33,918 bases of DNA, from assembly GCA_903908165.1 (NCBI GenBank), contig CAIVQX010000168.1:1-33918 (forward strand), read 5' to 3'. How positions within the stretch are numbered: position 1 is the first letter of the stretch; the number at the start of each line of letters is the position of its first letter. The notes under the pieces were generated by a model, which did no database searches, was not told the DNA's origin, and saw nothing but the letters and a program-made list of their open reading frames with translations. Positions 23,836 through 31,069 of the stretch are shown here, one piece after another. The DNA is from an uncultured Methylococcaceae bacterium (GTDB lineage Bacteria > Pseudomonadota > Gammaproteobacteria > Methylococcales > Methylomonadaceae). The translations under genes and the position numbers were made by a program.

Positions 23836-24477
23836 ATGGCAAAACCATTAATACAAATGGCATTAGATTCACTGGATTTCGACGCAACCGTAGGTCTTGC
23901 TACCTTGGTAGCACCTCATGTTGATATTTTTGAAATTGGAACTCCTTGCATCAAGCACAATGGTATAAATTTAGTTAGAGAATTGAGAGCAAGATTCCCA
24001 GATAAATTATTGTTAGTTGATCTTAAAACAATGGATGCTGGCGAATACGAAGCAACTCCTTTCTATGCAGCTGGCGCTGACATATGTACAGTACTTGGCG
24101 TTTCTGGATTGGCAACTTGCCAAGGTGTTATCAAAGCAGCTAATGCTCATGGTGCTGAAGCACAAATTGACTTGATCAATGTTGAAGACAAAATAGCATG
24201 TGCAAGAGCAACTGCTGATGCAGGCGCACAAATCATGGGTATTCATACAGGTCTTGATGCTCAAGCTGCTGGCCATACTCCATTTGCTGACTTGAACGAC
24301 ATTGCTGCATTAGGTTTACCAGTAAGAATTTCAGTAGCTGGCGGCATTAAGCCTTCAACTGTTCAAGATGTTGTAAGAGCTGGCGCAAACATTATCGTAG
24401 TTGGCGCTGCCATCTATGGTGCAGCTTCCCCTGCAGATGCAGCTCGTGAAATTCGCGAATTGGTTGACGCGGTTTAA
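23836..24477 (+). CDS. hxlA: 3-hexulose-6-phosphate synthase
   Basis: Hps condenses formaldehyde with ribulose 5-phosphate, the first step of the RuMP pathway. 213 aa TIM-barrel of the OMP-decarboxylase suprafamily: IQMALDSLDFD, EIGTPCIKHNG, LLVDLKTMDAGEYE (the D-x-K-x-x-D signature), VLGVSGLATC, MGIHTGLDAQAAG and VRISVAGGIKPST. Strong ribosome-binding site. Two bases separate it from phi. This gene is diagnostic of formaldehyde assimilation by the RuMP route (or, in some other organisms, detoxification); here its neighbours support assimilation. Alternative name hps. Confidence 0.96.
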   Translation: MAKPLIQMALDSLDFDATVGLATLVAPHVDIFEIGTPCIKHNGINLVRELRARFPDKLLLVDLKTMDAGEYEATPFYAAGADICTVLGVSGLATCQGVIKAANAHGAEAQIDLINVEDKIACARATADAGAQIMGIHTGLDAQAAGHTPFADLNDIAALGLPVRISVAGGIKPSTVQDVVRAGANIIVVGAAIYGAASPADAAREIRELVDAV

Positions 24478-24479
24478 TC

Positions 24480-25013
24480 ATGCATCAGCAACTTATCATA
24501 AAAAAGATTTCAGGTGTTCTTGAAGCTACAGATGATACGTATGATGTAAAGCTAACCAGGATACTTGACAAGGCTAAACGCATTTTTATTGCTGGTGCCG
24601 GTCGCTCTAAACTGGTTGGAAATTTCTTCGCAATGAGACTTGTCCATGGTGGCTACGATGTCAGTGTCGTAGGAGAAATTGTAACGCCAAGCATTAAAAA
24701 TGGTGACTTATTGATCGTGATTTCTGGATCTGGAGAGACTGAACAATTAATCGCTTTTACCAAAAATGCAAAAAAAATAGGGGCTAACATCGTCCTGATT
24801 TCTGCTAAAGATGAATCAACTATCGGCAATTTAGCTGATGACGTAATTCAAATTGGTAATAATGAACAATATGGTAAAGTTTTAGGCATGCCAATGGGGA
24901 CTGTCTTTGAACTATCTACCTTGTTATTTTTGGAAGCTACTATTTCTCATATAATTCATGAAAAAGGAATTCCTGAAGAAATAATGCGAGAAAGACACGC
25001 TAATCTAGAATAA
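24480..25013 (+). CDS. hxlB: 6-phospho-3-hexuloisomerase
   Basis: 177 aa SIS-domain isomerase converting hexulose 6-phosphate to fructose 6-phosphate. Signatures: FIAGAGRSKLVGNFFAMRLVHGGYDVSVVGE, LLIVISGSGETEQLIAFTKNAKKIGA, LISAKDESTIGNLADD, GTVFELSTLLFLEA and the C-terminal ERHANLE. It follows hps by 2 bp with no separate Shine-Dalgarno, suggesting coupling, and a strong terminator lies just behind. The genes are separate here rather than fused into one hps-phi protein as in some methanotrophs. Alternative name phi. Confidence 0.95.
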   Translation: MHQQLIIKKISGVLEATDDTYDVKLTRILDKAKRIFIAGAGRSKLVGNFFAMRLVHGGYDVSVVGEIVTPSIKNGDLLIVISGSGETEQLIAFTKNAKKIGANIVLISAKDESTIGNLADDVIQIGNNEQYGKVLGMPMGTVFELSTLLFLEATISHIIHEKGIPEEIMRERHANLE

Positions 25014-25158: not shown

Positions 25159-27153
25159 ATGACTTCGCGCCGAGAATTAGCGAACGCCATACGCGCTTTG
25201 AGCATGGATGCCGTTCAAAAAGCAAATTCTGGACATCCAGGAGCACCAATGGGAATGGCGGATATAGCCGAGGTTTTATGGAACGACTTCATGAGCCACA
25301 ACCCAACCAATCCACAATGGTCTAATAGAGACCGTTTTGTGCTTTCGAATGGTCATGGCTCGATGCTGATTTATTCATTATTACACTTAACTGGATACGA
25401 TCTTCCAATTGAAGAACTGATGAACTTTCGTCAGCTTCATTCTAAAACACCCGGTCACCCAGAATATGGTTACGCTCCAGGTGTCGAGACAACAACGGGT
25501 CCTTTAGGTCAAGGTATCACAAACGCAGTAGGTATGGCGATTGCTGAAAAAGCATTGGCAGCCCAATTTAACAGACAAGGTCACACTATCGTAGATCACA
25601 ACACATTCGCTTTCTTAGGTGATGGTTGTTTAATGGAAGGTATTTCACACGAAGCGTGTTCTTTAGCTGGAACATTAGGATTAGGTAAATTAATTGCATT
25701 CTGGGACGACAACGGTATTTCTATTGACGGGCATGTTGAAGGCTGGTTCACTGATAATACAACTTTACGTTTCGAATCCTACGGTTGGCATGTGATTGCA
25801 GATATTGACGGACATGACCACAGCGCAATCACTAAGGCAATTGAATTAGCAAAGTCAGTTTCAAGCAAACCTACATTAATTTGTTGTAAGACTACCATTG
25901 GCTTTGGATCTCCTAATAAAGCAGGGAGCCACGCTTGTCATGGTGCAGCACTAGGTCAAGACGAAATCAATCTAACAAAAGCAGCATTAGGCTGGGATCA
26001 TGAGGCGTTCATTATTCCTGATGACGTTTATGCTGGCTGGGATGCAAAAGTAAAAGGTTCTAAATCAGAAAGTGATTGGAATGAAAAGTTTGCAGCTTAC
26101 AAAACAGCATATCCTGAATTGGCTGCAGAATATAAGCGTCGTATCTCAGGTGACTTACCGAGTAACTGGAAAGCACAAGCTGATGCATTTGTAAGTGCTA
26201 TTAACGCAGAAGCTAAGACTACTGCCACAAGACTTTCATCATTAGCAGCCATTGAGGGTTTTGCAAAAATATTACCTGAAATTTTCGGTGGATCAGCTGA
26301 CTTAGGCTGCTCTAACATGACTGAATGGTCAGGTTACAGACCGATGCGTGCTGATAAACCAGATGCAAATTACATCAATTATGGTGTACGTGAGTTCGGT
26401 ATGTCTGCAATCATGAATGGTATTGCCTTGCACGGTGGATTAATTCCATTTGGCGCAACATTCTTAATGTTTTCAGAGTACGCACGTAATGCATTACGAA
26501 TGGCCTCCTTAATGAAGATTCGTTCAATTTTCGTTTACACCCATGATTCTATTGGGCTAGGTGAAGATGGACCAACACATCAACCAATTGAACAGACTGC
26601 AACTCTACGCCTAATTCCGGGCATTCAAGTATGGCGTCCATGTGATGCAGTAGAAACAACTGTTTCTTGGAAAGCGGCATTTGAAAGACAAGATGGACCG
26701 TCTATTCTTGTATTCTCACGTCAAAACTTACCTCACATAGATCGTACCCCAGCTCAAATTGAATTAATTTCACGTGGTGGATATGTATTAAGTGACAGCG
26801 AAGGTCAACCAGATGCAATTATAATTGCAACAGGATCTGAAGTTGAGCTTGCAGTAAAAGCTGCTGTTGAATTAAGAGCGACTGGCAAAAACATACGTGT
26901 TGTATCTATGCCTTCAACTAACATATTCGACGCACAAGATGCGGCATATAAAGAATCAGTTCTCCCCTCAGCTGTTACTAAACGTGTTGCTGTAGAAGCT
27001 GGTGTAACTGGAGGCTGGTGGAAATATGTTGGCACAAACGGCAAAGTAGTGGGCATAGATCATTTTGGTGAATCTGCACCCGCTGGACTACTTTTCAAAG
27101 AGTTTGGCTTCACAGTTGAAAATGTAGTTAAGAACGTAGAAGCAGTAATTTAA
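25159..27153 (+). CDS. tkt: transketolase
   Basis: 664 aa, standard bacterial length. TPP domain: [49 protein letters not shown] and the GDG-N metal motif [18 protein letters not shown]...[10 protein letters not shown]. Pyrimidine domain: [25 protein letters not shown] with the catalytic Glu, [16 protein letters not shown]-terminal GGWWKYVG. In the RuMP cycle it regenerates ribulose 5-phosphate from fructose 6-phosphate and triose phosphate. Strong AAGGAG ribosome-binding site. Gap of 145 bp to phi with a terminator, 105 bp to the repeat-protein pair. Confidence 0.97.
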
Positions 27154-27197
27154 TTTAAAGCCAAATATAGAGTAGTTATACACAATAAATTTAGAGA

Positions 27198-27226
27198 GAG
27201 AGTTCGAATTGCTACACAGAACTCTC
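27198..27226 (+). other. hairpin between tkt and the repeat-protein genes
   Basis: GAGAGTTC (27198-27205) and GAACTCTC (27219-27226) form a perfect 8-bp stem with a 13-nt loop, followed by a pyrimidine-rich stretch (CCCTCTTCTTCC) rather than a T-run. It may be a partial terminator or an RNase processing point that sets the ratio of tkt to downstream mRNA. Confidence 0.4.
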
Positions 27227-27258
27227 GACCCTCTTCTTCCGACTTTTAGGTGAACAAC

Positions 27259-27945
27259 GTGAAAATGAATAATTTGACCAAAGGTACCTTTGCAGTACTA
27301 CTTTTATCAAGTGCTGTAGCTAGCGCTGATCCACAGTATCCTGCTGCAGACTTTCAACCAGAAGTGCTTTATCAAAATAGTGACTATATTGCTCCGCAAT
27401 CAACTGCCACTAAAGCTGCTCCAGCTCATAAGTCCACATCAAGTGAATCAGCTACAACTACACATGATGATAAATATCCAGCTGCGGACTTTCAACCAGA
27501 AGTTTTATACCATGATCCAAATTACAAACATACCGAATCTGTGAAGTCAGCTTCGGCTAGAACTGCTTCACCTAGTTCTTCGGATGAGCAAGGATCAATT
27601 TCTACTGCCACTACTGAAGAAAATTCATCGATGTCAAGTTACATGATTGGATTAATAATACTTGCAATGGCAGGATTTTATTTTTTCAAAAAATCAGCAT
27701 GTACCTCGGGACATAAAAAAAATACAGCACCAGTTAGAAAATCTTATGCTGTAAATACAGGAGTAGCAAAATACCTTAATAAAATATCAGGTACAGGCGT
27801 TTCAAGATATTTAGATTCGCAGGTTAAATCTGTATCTGCAGCAACCGGTGTTGCTAAATATATGGCAAAACAAGCAGTATCTACAAAAGAATCTGTGAAT
27901 AAAGCTGCAACTGGTGTTGACAAATACATGCGCGACCGAGGCTAA
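27259..27945 (+). CDS. membrane-anchored protein with four GVxKYL motifs (repeat protein A), unknown function
   Basis: 228 aa from GTG 27259, chosen because AGGTGA lies 5 nt upstream; GTG 27250 and ATG 27265 are alternatives. Order of parts: signal peptide with cleavage likely after AVASA (about residue 23); two copies of YPAADFQPEVLY (27-38 and 73-84) joined by a Ser/Thr/Ala-rich linker; a low-complexity Ser/Thr stretch; one transmembrane segment (about 128-143, YMIGLIILAMAGFYFF) followed by KKSACTSGHKK; then four motifs: TGVAKYL, TGVSRYL, TGVAKYM, TGVDKYM. With the positive flank after the membrane segment, the first half should be periplasmic and the motif half cytoplasmic. Only 2 bp before repeat protein B and inside the RuMP gene group. 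I do not recognise the family and assign no function. Confidence 0.82.
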   Translation: MKMNNLTKGTFAVLLLSSAVASADPQYPAADFQPEVLYQNSDYIAPQSTATKAAPAHKSTSSESATTTHDDKYPAADFQPEVLYHDPNYKHTESVKSASARTASPSSSDEQGSISTATTEENSSMSSYMIGLIILAMAGFYFFKKSACTSGHKKNTAPVRKSYAVNTGVAKYLNKISGTGVSRYLDSQVKSVSAATGVAKYMAKQAVSTKESVNKAATGVDKYMRDRG

Positions 27946-27947
27946 TC

Positions 27948-28736
27948 ATGAACAAGAAAAACTCGAATAGTTTTTTCCCTTTAGTTGCGGGTTTGTTTTT
28001 TTTCATGAATAAACCTCGATCTGAGGACATCTACAGGGATAAAACGGAATATCCTGTCTACAGCAAAGATCCAAGCGGTATGACAGGAGTTTCAAAGTAT
28101 TTAGATAAACAAAATGCTTTAATTCTTGCACATAGCGTAATAGAAGAACCTACTCAATTAGTGAGCGGTGTCGCCAAGTATTTAGTTGCTTTGGATGAAA
28201 CTCCTGCTAGTGGTGTTTCGAAATATATTTTAAGACAGGCCATTGCAGATAAACAAAACAGACTATTAACTAACGAACCTGAAGCTACAGGTGTTGAGAA
28301 ATACCTGAAGAATAAAAAACCAGCTCCAGAACTCACTGGAGTAGCAAAATATATGAAGCATCAGGCCAGCTTGCCACAACCCAGTAATGTTGAAAAATAT
28401 CTATCAAAACAAGCAGCCATAAATGCTTTACAAGTAAAACAAACGAAAGTTGTAGTCTCTGGAGTTTCCAAATATTTGCAAACCCAAGAAAACCTACCAC
28501 AACCTAGCAGAGTTGCTAAATACATGGCAAAACAAGCTGCTTTAGCTGCTTTAACAGCGAAACAAACAAAGGAACCAGCTATTTTAACAGGTGTTGCCAA
28601 GTACCTTGATGATCAGGCAAAACTGCCTCAGATTAGTAGAGTCGCAAAATACATGGCAAGACAAGCTTTAGTTGAAAAGCAAAATCCTGAATCAATTGAA
28701 ACAGGCGTTCAAAAATACATGCGTCACCAAGCTTAA
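27948..28736 (+). CDS. protein with eleven GVxKYL-type motifs (repeat protein B), unknown function
   Basis: 262 aa. A short basic N-terminus (MNKKNSNS) and a 12-residue hydrophobic stretch (FFPLVAGLFFFM) could be a weak membrane anchor. From residue 46 on, the motif [STR]-[GNR]-V-x-K-Y-[LMI], often followed by xxQ, occurs eleven times, with Lys-Tyr at 50, 77, 92, 118, 134, 150, 175, 191, 218, 234 and 256. The linkers are Lys/Gln/Ala/Pro-rich (LPQPS recurs). No cysteine and no enzyme motif. Each motif could form a short amphipathic helix ended by Pro or Gly, typical of a multivalent binding protein rather than a catalyst. GAGG 8 nt before ATG; 2 bp after protein A. Family unknown to me; a scaffold role is inference only. 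Confidence 0.82.
   Translation: MNKKNSNSFFPLVAGLFFFMNKPRSEDIYRDKTEYPVYSKDPSGMTGVSKYLDKQNALILAHSVIEEPTQLVSGVAKYLVALDETPASGVSKYILRQAIADKQNRLLTNEPEATGVEKYLKNKKPAPELTGVAKYMKHQASLPQPSNVEKYLSKQAAINALQVKQTKVVVSGVSKYLQTQENLPQPSRVAKYMAKQAALAALTAKQTKEPAILTGVAKYLDDQAKLPQISRVAKYMARQALVEKQNPESIETGVQKYMRHQA
28335..28700 (+). repeat. three degenerate tandem units of about 41 codons inside repeat protein B
   Basis: Units at 28335-28457, 28458-28586 and 28587-28700 (41, 43 and 38 codons) each contain two GVxKYL-type motifs separated by 16 residues with LPQPS or LPQIS between them, then an Ala/Gln/Lys-rich spacer. The DNA still shows similarity 123 bp apart (for example AAAACAAGC at 28406 and 28529), so the gene grew by in-frame duplication and has since diverged. 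Confidence 0.75.
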
Positions 28737-28745
28737 TAAATCCCC

Positions 28746-28805
28746 GAGAGAATAAACAGTTTGAGTATTAATAAACCCTAAGCTGTCGATTCTCTCCCAA
28801 TTTTT
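28746..28805 (+). terminator. terminator-like structure between repeat protein B and tal
   Basis: GAGAGAAT (28746-28753) pairs with ATTCTCTC (28789-28796); inside, ACAG and CTGT extend the structure. CCAA and a T5-6 run (to 28805) follow. It lies directly after the stop of repeat protein B. The long loop makes its strength uncertain. Confidence 0.5.
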
Positions 28806-28908: not shown

Positions 28909-29895
28909 ATGGGAAAAAATTTACTAGAACAACTAAAAGAAATCACTGTTGTTGTGGCTGACACAGGCGACATTCAAGCGATTGAAACTTTCACTCCACG
29001 TGACGCAACAACTAATCCATCATTGATTACTGCTGCAGCTCAAATGCCTCAATACCAAGGTATTGTAGATGATACATTAAAAGCTGCTCGTGTAACTTTA
29101 GGCGAATCAGCAAATGCTAATGAGGTTGTATCACTCGCATTTGATCGTCTTGCCGTTTCATTCGGCCTTAAAATTCTTGAAATCATTCCTGGTCGAGTTT
29201 CAACTGAAGTCGATGCACGTCTATCATTTGATACTGATGCAACAATTGCTAAAGGTCGTGATTTAATCGCACAATACGAAGCTCACAACGTTTCTCGTGA
29301 ACGAGTATTGATTAAAATAGCGGCAACTTGGGAAGGTATTCAAGCAGCAGCAGTACTAGAAAAAGAAGGCATTCACACCAACTTAACTTTGTTATTTGGT
29401 TTACACCAAGCAGTTGCTTGTGCTGAAAATGGCATCACGTTAATCTCACCATTTGTAGGTCGAATTCTTGACTGGTACAAAAAAGATACAGGCCGTGACT
29501 CATATACTCCAGCAGAAGATCCAGGTGTTGTATCTGTTACTGAAATCTATAATTACTACAAAAAATTCGATTACAAAACTGAAGTTATGGGAGCAAGCTT
29601 CCGTAACGTTGGAGAAATTACTGAATTAGCGGGTAGTGATTTATTAACAATTGCTCCTTCTTTATTAGCTGAATTACAAGCGACTGAGGGAGAATTGCCA
29701 CGTAAATTAGATCCAGATAACGCTGCAAGTTTATCAATTGAAAAATTATCAATTGATAAAGCAACTTTTGAAAGAATGCACACTGAAAATCGCATGGCTA
29801 CTGACAAATTGGCAGAAGGCATCAATGGCTTTGCAACTGCTTTAGAAGCGCTAGAAGAATTACTTGCAAACCGTTTAGCTAGCTTAGAAGGCTAA
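28909..29895 (+). CDS. tal: transaldolase
   Basis: 328 aa, TalB-like. [14 protein letters not shown] carries the conserved Asp, [15 protein letters not shown] the Schiff-base Lys136, then [63 protein letters not shown] and DKLAEGI. It moves dihydroxyacetone between sugar phosphates in the transaldolase variant of RuMP acceptor regeneration. ATG 28909 is chosen because AAAGG lies 8 nt upstream and homology begins there; the open frame upstream to 28804 adds 35 residues of no family resemblance. A terminator follows. Confidence 0.97.
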
Positions 29896-29989: not shown

Positions 29990-31069
29990 ATGTCACAAAA
30001 AATCTTAGACGTAGTAAAACCAGGTGTTGTTACTGGTGCTGATGTACAAAAAGTATTTGAAATTTGCAAGGCAAATAAATTTGCTTTGCCCGCTGTTAAC
30101 GTAATTAACACCGATTCAATCAATGCTGTTTTAGAAGCAGCTGCTAAAGTTAAATCAGCTGTTTTTGTACAATTCTCTAACGGTGGTGCTGCATTTGTCG
30201 CTGGTAAAGGTCTAAAAGCTGAAGGTCAACAAGCCGCAATCTTAGGTGCTATTTCAGGTGCTAAACATGTACACTTAATGGCTGAAGCTTATGGCGTACC
30301 CGTTATTTTACATACTGACCACGCTGCTAAAAAATTATTACCATGGATTGATGGTTTATTAGATGCAGGTGAAAAACACTTTGCAGAAACTGGCAAACCA
30401 TTATTCAGCTCACACATGTTAGATTTATCTGAAGAAAGTCTAAAAGAAAACATTGAAATTTGTAGTCAATATTTGGCCCGTATGTCTAAAATGGGCATGA
30501 CACTTGAAATTGAACTAGGTGTAACCGGTGGTGAGGAAGATGGAGTTGATAACAGCAATTTAGATCACTCATTACTTTACACACAACCAGAAGATGTTGC
30601 GTACGCTTATGAAGAATTGAGCAAAATTAGCCCGAACTTTACTATCGCAGCATCTTTCGGTAATGTTCATGGTGTTTATAAACCAGGTAATGTTAAATTA
30701 ACACCAACAATTTTGGACAACTCACAAAAATATGTGTCTGAAAAATACGGCGTTCCTGCTAATACTTTAAACTTTGTTTTCCACGGTGGTTCAGGCTCAA
30801 CAGCTGCAGAAATTGAAGAATCAATTAGCTACGGTGTTGTAAAAATGAACATTGATACTGATACTCAATGGGCAACTTGGGAAGGTATCATGAACTACTA
30901 CAAGAAAAATGAAGGTTACTTACAAGGCCAAATCGGTAACCCAGAAGGCGACGATAAACCAAACAAAAAATTCTACGATCCACGCGTTTGGCAACGTGAA
31001 GGTGAAGTTGGAATGGTTGTACGTTTAGAGCAAGCATTCAAAGAATTAAACGCAGTTAATACTTTATAA
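29990..31069 (+). CDS. fba: class II fructose-bisphosphate aldolase
   Basis: 359 aa, very close in pattern to E. coli FbaA (class IIA). DVVKPGVVTGADVQKVFEI, QFSNGGAAF, the zinc and catalytic HTDHAAKKLLPW, LEIELGVTGGEEDGVDNS, AASFGNVHGVYKPGNV and NFVFHGGSGSTAAEI are all present. It interconverts fructose 1,6-bisphosphate and triose phosphates; in RuMP organisms with the Embden-Meyerhof route it cleaves the C6 product, and related enzymes also handle sedoheptulose bisphosphate. ATAGGA 6 nt before ATG is a good ribosome-binding site. Convergent with fhcC across a strong terminator. Confidence 0.97.
   Translation: MSQKILDVVKPGVVTGADVQKVFEICKANKFALPAVNVINTDSINAVLEAAAKVKSAVFVQFSNGGAAFVAGKGLKAEGQQAAILGAISGAKHVHLMAEAYGVPVILHTDHAAKKLLPWIDGLLDAGEKHFAETGKPLFSSHMLDLSEESLKENIEICSQYLARMSKMGMTLEIELGVTGGEEDGVDNSNLDHSLLYTQPEDVAYAYEELSKISPNFTIAASFGNVHGVYKPGNVKLTPTILDNSQKYVSEKYGVPANTLNFVFHGGSGSTAAEIEESISYGVVKMNIDTDTQWATWEGIMNYYKKNEGYLQGQIGNPEGDDKPNKKFYDPRVWQREGEVGMVVRLEQAFKELNAVNTL

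Follow-up and report, generated by a model that had tools for sequence, protein, structure and literature searches.

RuMP genes and a motif-bearing gene pair

The window (the whole stretch of 33,918 nucleotides analysed here) contains a group of RuMP-cycle genes, all on the forward strand. Among them are hps (23836..24477), encoding a 3-hexulose-6-phosphate synthase that belongs to the Pfam OMPdecase/HUMPS family and scores above the TIGR03128 cut-off, and phi (24480..25013), encoding a 6-phospho-3-hexuloisomerase recognised by its Pfam SIS domain and its position behind hps. From the sequence of their translations and from orthologues at the equivalent place, we take tkt (25159..27153) to encode transketolase and fba (29990..31069) to encode fructose-bisphosphate aldolase. 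The tal gene (28909..29895) encodes transaldolase (Pfam TAL_FSA); its listed open reading frame opens at 28804, and the ATG at 28909 is the probable start. Translated open reading frames of the window place two further genes, encoding protein A (27250..27945) and protein B (27948..28736), between tkt upstream and tal downstream. The original prediction had this arrangement and the coordinates of the pair right, including the gap of 2 bp between the end of A at 27945 and the start of B at 27948. Judged from its sequence, the most likely start of A is GTG 27250 rather than ATG 27259, because the resulting N-terminus, MNNVK, is present in close relatives. By eye, inverted repeats GAGAGTTC/GAACTCTC and GAGAGAAT/ATTCTCTC can be seen on either side of the A-B pair (window positions 27190-27230 and 28745-28805); Rfam at gathering scores gave nothing in the window, these inverted repeats included.

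Protein A consists of a signal peptide, two YPAADFQPEVLY repeats that were overlooked in the original prediction (27337..27372 and 27475..27510, forward strand, both predicted to be periplasmic), a Ser/Thr-rich linker, a predicted transmembrane segment around YMIGLIILAMAGFYFF with KK behind it (27634..27690, forward strand), a basic stretch and four motifs. The motif copies, GVAKYL, GVSRYL, GVAKYM and GVDKYM, begin at 27760, 27796, 27847 and 27913 (span 27760..27930, forward strand), and the last ends 3 residues before the C-terminus. Signal peptide and membrane segment were called by eye and from hydropathy; the segment is the hydropathy maximum of the protein and is hydrophobic in the A1 rows. 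By the positive-inside rule, the repeats are predicted to lie outside the membrane and the motifs inside.

Motif-less relatives of A were also found. Two f5 homologues (G293, G294) keep the repeats and the membrane segment, lack the motifs and have no labelled RuMP gene nearby, and an f6 match to the A profile (G303) has the outer repeats without motifs. At L138 and L150 (f5) and L143 (f6), we observed A-type outer repeats and no motifs; L138 and L150 have a membrane segment and, where the motifs are absent, an acidic tail with basic residues at its end. Elsewhere in Methylococcales, small secreted proteins (L207, L209, L210 and L075:91-363) carry two or three YPAADFQPxVxY-like repeats and no GVxKYL, and one secreted protein of this kind lies just upstream of an unlinked B in Methylomonas.

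Protein B has a conserved hydrophobic N-terminal segment, FFPLVAGLFFFM (27972..28007, forward strand), and eleven motif copies beginning at 28086, 28167, 28212, 28290, 28338, 28386, 28461, 28509, 28590, 28638 and 28704 (span 28086..28721, forward strand). The copy number of B-type proteins ranges from 7 to 17 in the larger loci that we read. N-termini differ between groups: B has FFPAVAGLFFFMKRPK and B proteins of Methylomonadaceae open with FFPAVAGLFFFM-like segments, whereas the proteins of f10 (by inference probably Methylophagaceae) open with MSEKGFFSSICGLFKGIFSS or similar segments. A hydrophobic or amphipathic N-terminal segment is present in most B types read, and a protein of f4 (probably Methylococcaceae) that is unlinked to RuMP genes, at L220, has a clear hydrophobic stretch. 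The anchor is not universal, because no such segment is seen in the tiny f4 protein of G237 if the nearest Met is its start. The architecture originally proposed for the pair, a hydrophobic segment together with motifs set in low-complexity linkers, was recovered in most types read; the tiny three-motif f4 proteins have no clear anchor. Two unlinked B-type proteins (L222:2734-3519, reverse strand; L223:8442-9272, forward strand) have in common a Cys/His-rich end, CQAxTxKGTQC...FTVCxQH, which is perhaps a zinc-binding domain.

Conservation and specificity of the motif

The expression [ST][GRN]Vx[KR]Y[LMI] occurs four times in A and eleven times in B, as first counted, and in 5000 shufflings of each protein never more than one motif arose. 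Synonymous codons vary between the copies, which rules out a DNA artefact or a recent DNA duplication as the source of the repeats. A degenerate DNA pattern approximating [ST]GVx[KR]Y[LMIF], with CGN arginine outside the pattern, matched the 2.78-Mb genome at 12 places on the forward strand, all of them in A and B, and at none on the reverse strand; the same pattern read backwards, as a control, matched 5 times.

In a 42-row alignment of B (the window and loci L032-L072, with the more divergent L073 and later excluded), the mean conservation of the window residue was 1.00 for both V and Y of the motif, 0.84 for K, 0.82 for Q at +8 and 0.80 for G; the linker positions averaged 0.42. Motif statistics come from 292 copies in 73 distinct A proteins and 616 copies in 58 distinct B proteins; V and Y are invariant in them because the search expression requires both. 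In 99% of these copies the residue at -1 is T or S, Q stands at +8 in 40% of A and 78% of B copies, and R replaces K in 25% of A and 17% of B copies. The script defined the A class as having exactly four motifs, so that a count of four is partly by construction; an unsorted listing of all open reading frames with at least two motifs also gave four in every A-type frame of Methylomonadaceae, and the script found two to four in A of other genera and families. No full-length open reading frame labelled as a RuMP enzyme contains the motif.

The composition of the motif raises the question of whether it reacts with formaldehyde directly, as a Lys-Tyr-Gln-rich sink or sensor that would become cross-linked or form a gel as formaldehyde rises. 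Formaldehyde can bridge Lys, Tyr and Gln residues, which the motif combines, and the genes lie in one group with that of the formaldehyde-fixing enzyme. However, Lys gives way to Arg at the frequencies above (25% in A, 17% in B) and V is kept as well as Y, and we regard such a chemical role as very improbable.

In searches of family libraries, neither A nor B gave a credible match to any known family. A match to a characterised family with another role would have told against the original prediction, and the libraries searched returned no credible one. The only match above any curated cut-off was that of PF12220 (U1 snRNP) to B (25.8 bits, cut-off 23), which we judged spurious and compositional. 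Matches of B to the XopAD/skwp effector (19.6 bits against a cut-off of 2000; XopAD was matched by 5 of 22 B-type proteins at E values up to 0.001), of A to an LPXTG/sortase surface protein (13.4 bits against 15.9), and weak or below-cut-off matches to SCFA_trans, CEND1, Tpg and DPC2 were likewise judged compositional. PADLOC returned nothing for A, B and one f10 protein, solved structures nothing for the B profile, and plasmids nothing for one f10 protein. In the literature, titles and the openings of abstracts, a scope outside which most subscription papers fall, held nothing on such a motif protein; in the accessible text of PMC5802761 and PMC6220066, "metabolon" is the name of a company.

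Linkage to RuMP genes across rearranged clusters

Genes in other loci were labelled for the five RuMP enzymes only. The typical orders are hps-phi-tkt-A-B-tal-fba in Methylomonadaceae, where named loci include Methylobacter, Methylovulum, Crenothrix and Methylomonas, A-hps-phi in f4 and, in another order, hps-B-tal in f10. For Methylomonadaceae, A loci were counted among L032-L098, which had been found with B as query: the order tkt-A-(B)-tal is present in 47 of 64, and each of the remaining 17 loci stops short of one of the two neighbours (15 upstream, 2 downstream). In all 36 A loci with at least 4.6 kb of upstream sequence, hps, phi and tkt lie no more than 6 kb from A. Within the same range of loci, B lies between tkt and tal in 42 of 49, with one side missing in 4 and neither side present in 3; in Methylomonas, B was found in three loci (L075-L077), each time away from the RuMP cluster.

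Other families show further arrangements. Most f4 loci read have hps immediately downstream of A; two f4 genomes (G237, G238), in which hps and phi are the only RuMP labels in the stretch read, have a three-motif open reading frame of 77-89 aa between A and hps. In G230 there are two neighbouring copies of A-hps-phi, which resemble the direct repeat of phi, hps, tal, fba and tkt described for Methylococcus capsulatus Bath (PMC517821), an account that, in its accessible part, names enzymes only. The order is tkt-A-small B-tal in f3 and tkt-A-tal in f7, and G010 has hps-phi-tkt-B twice, followed by hps-phi-tkt-A-tal-fba. A motif match was found in 54 of 57 f10 genomes, and in a small open reading frame in 46 of the 57. 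When 30 f10 loci (L157-L186) were read, 28 passed the motif filter (L162 and L174 were dropped); the small motif protein stands as hps-B-tal in 27 of these 28, and the remaining one, close to a contig start, has no labelled upstream gene. Finally, 23 larger loci, chosen in part for holding hps, gave 26 open reading frames that pass a three-motif filter (none from L204 and L226), with hps and phi within 8 kb of 22 of the 26.

The predicted link with RuMP genes thus held strongly, through three gene orders and in the presence and absence of the genes described below. Encoding beside RuMP genes persists across rearranged clusters, and the exceptions, motif proteins without labelled RuMP neighbours, are L075-L077, L199, L220, L222 and L223. 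Homologues without a RuMP link, named in the original prediction as a finding that would speak against it, exist as a minority of the loci read, and most are linked. As a separate observation, loci from genomes of different assigned families (L129, G295:C1; L130, G218:C285) contain a RuMP stretch with identical printed motif open reading frames; cross-binning of contigs is possible.

These gene orders bear on the proposal that A and B are structural proteins which shape or stack intracytoplasmic membranes by means of a self-associating motif. Internal membranes are common in methanotrophs, to which many of the members belong, and both proteins carry hydrophobic segments. However, the genes to which the pair is linked are RuMP genes, and a motif protein is present in f10, a family that we infer is probably not methanotrophic. 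A role in shaping membranes is improbable on this evidence.

Presence and absence of the motif proteins relative to Hps

A sequence search with B matched 177 of 201 genomes of Methylomonadaceae. In a sample of the class, the B profile matched 5 of 369 genomes, namely 5 of the 6 with Hps above the cut-off (G000, G010, G233, G310, G461 and G652) and 0 of the 363 others, so that B-profile matches in this sample are confined to Hps-positive genomes; the B-profile and Hps runs had equal settings and 369 genomes each, presumably the same set judging from its size and the listed handles. One further genome, G548, has an Hps match under the cut-off and no B match. G233, the Hps-positive genome without a B-profile match, contains a homologue, detected by the A profile, whose coding sequence is broken up over several reading frames, as is that of the hps next to it (L149, L250, L252), and, elsewhere, a 433-aa open reading frame with Hps above the cut-off (L240). 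In a sample of the phylum, the B profile matched 1 of 397 genomes, the window itself, and 0 of the 396 others.

Within the order, the A profile matched 269 of 305 genomes. The 36 without a match are 17 from f2, 10 from f4, 2 from f6, 2 from f8 and 5 from f1, and an Hps match is also absent from all of them except 7 of the 10 f4 genomes. For the five f1 genomes a missing contig is likely, since they are 73-84% complete. Across 79 genomes, comprising all 73 outside the family and 6 family members in which the A match was weak or absent, 40 have A and Hps, 3 have A only, 7 have Hps only and 29 have neither. The A-profile matches without an Hps match in the order are those of G303, which has no motifs, G301 and G092. 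A motif protein does not occur wherever Hps does, as the 7 f4 genomes and the hps loci of f5 demonstrate. Hps is present in 9 of 10 f5 genomes, and no motif protein was seen in the hps stretches read, which cover all 9 of these and 6 of the 7 A-negative, Hps-positive f4 genomes, some with flanks of only 1.5 kb. These results suggest that the RuMP pathway probably works without the motif protein.

The motif in ChpA-type kinases

The f10 genomes also carry the motif in large proteins, with a match in an open reading frame of 733-2065 aa in 34 of 57. Of the two that we read, one (L201:3745-9852, reverse strand) is a ChpA-type kinase with Hpt, HATPase, CheW and receiver domains, and the other (L200:1-2549, reverse strand) is a contig-cut ChpA relative beside an MCP, CheW and a receiver/response regulator protein. 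In both of these pilus chemotaxis kinases, T[SG]VxRY[IL] recurs several times between the Hpt domains. This occurrence was not predicted by the original model. No motif was found in 12 fragments, taken from 23 matches in genomes of the order, that surround ChpA-like kinases and do not in every case reach the N-terminal part.

Two explanations can be given: in f10, ChpA makes use of the RuMP client, or the two kinds of protein share a hub. If the latter, the motif would dock not on a RuMP enzyme but on a general hub, such as a polar, cytoskeletal or membrane protein, that f10 ChpA shares; A and B would organise the membrane or pole, and their location in the RuMP cluster would reflect co-expression. 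The large-protein matches in 34 of 57 f10 genomes, of which the two read are ChpA-type, and the few B-type proteins without a RuMP neighbour are consistent with such a hub. A general hub would, however, lead one to expect the motif in Hps-negative genomes too, whereas co-occurrence with Hps in the class sample is near-perfect, linkage is kept through three gene orders, and the 12 ChpA-like fragments of the order, subject to the same N-terminal coverage, show no motif. We consider a general hub unlikely.

A candidate membrane scaffold for RuMP enzymes

The hydrophobic segments, the repeated motif, the variable linkers, the varying copy number and the lasting RuMP association lead us to read A and B as a multivalent membrane scaffold that acts on RuMP enzymes. 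We give this reading a probability of about one half, held down chiefly by the motif in the f10 ChpA kinases. As scaffolds of the RuMP cycle, A and B would be membrane-tethered and largely disordered. A would cross the membrane once and present its four motifs to the cytoplasm, and B would be held on the membrane by its hydrophobic N-terminus and present eleven. Each [ST]-G-V-x-K-Y-L-x-x-Q would probably form one short amphipathic helical turn, a putative docking element for a folded, oligomeric RuMP enzyme. Many motifs meeting many subunits may then produce a cross-linked layer at the membrane that would capture formaldehyde as it enters.

Among possible clients Hps is the likeliest, followed by Phi, Tal or Tkt. 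Hps is weakly favoured because, together with Phi, it is common to every linked arrangement in the larger loci, because it lies nearer to the motif gene in f4 and f10, and because it uses formaldehyde. Since Phi is an equally constant neighbour, we name Hps as the direct client only tentatively and would sooner expect the assignment to fail than to hold. No docking-site signature emerged from comparison of 80 linked with 27 unlinked Hps sequences, in which only 2 columns are conserved in the former and changed in the latter. An Hps tree requires 4 changes of linkage, where shuffled labels require 21.5, and visual inspection places several unlinked groups at the end of long stems; the pattern may reflect paralogy, and for that reason we do not take the tree as proof.

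EPYC1 and CsoS2 are linkers of Rubisco that carry repeated short motifs. Like A and B, in which a short motif is repeated at intervals in low-complexity sequence, they are low-complexity proteins with spaced motifs and are tied, genetically or functionally, to one carbon-fixation enzyme. A and B differ from them in having another motif, RuMP neighbours and, in most types, a hydrophobic or amphipathic segment. Library matches of A and B name neither the EPYC1 nor the CsoS2 family, and none of the ten window proteins scanned with Pfam is a Rubisco or carboxysome protein. The likeness, drawn by analogy, is one of design and not of sequence, and we claim no family membership.

Engineered assemblies of Mdh, Hps and Phi (Price et al. 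2016, as cited in PMC8879981) have, as described there, the same aim of keeping formaldehyde close to Hps-Phi. By that description they are man-made fusions or complexes, whereas A and B are a natural gene pair with a putative function. The motif could serve as a tag for engineered methanol use.

Gammaproteobacterial methanotrophs take in carbon mainly through the RuMP pathway, and formaldehyde is toxic when free; the question of how it is handed from its source to Hps is, to our knowledge, still open. A conserved member of the RuMP cluster that resembles a natural scaffold, with no credible match in the libraries searched, makes this handover directly testable. Methanol dehydrogenase makes formaldehyde in the periplasm, and a bolder version of the scaffold reading, which we think rather unlikely, would make A a transenvelope formaldehyde relay, its periplasmic YPAADFQPxVxY repeats holding something outside and the motifs of A and B holding Hps and other RuMP enzymes inside. 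If such a relay exists, it would physically link the oxidation of methanol to the fixation of formaldehyde across a single membrane in most methanotrophs of the Gammaproteobacteria; in f10, the motif would also connect the RuMP pathway with the pilus kinase ChpA.
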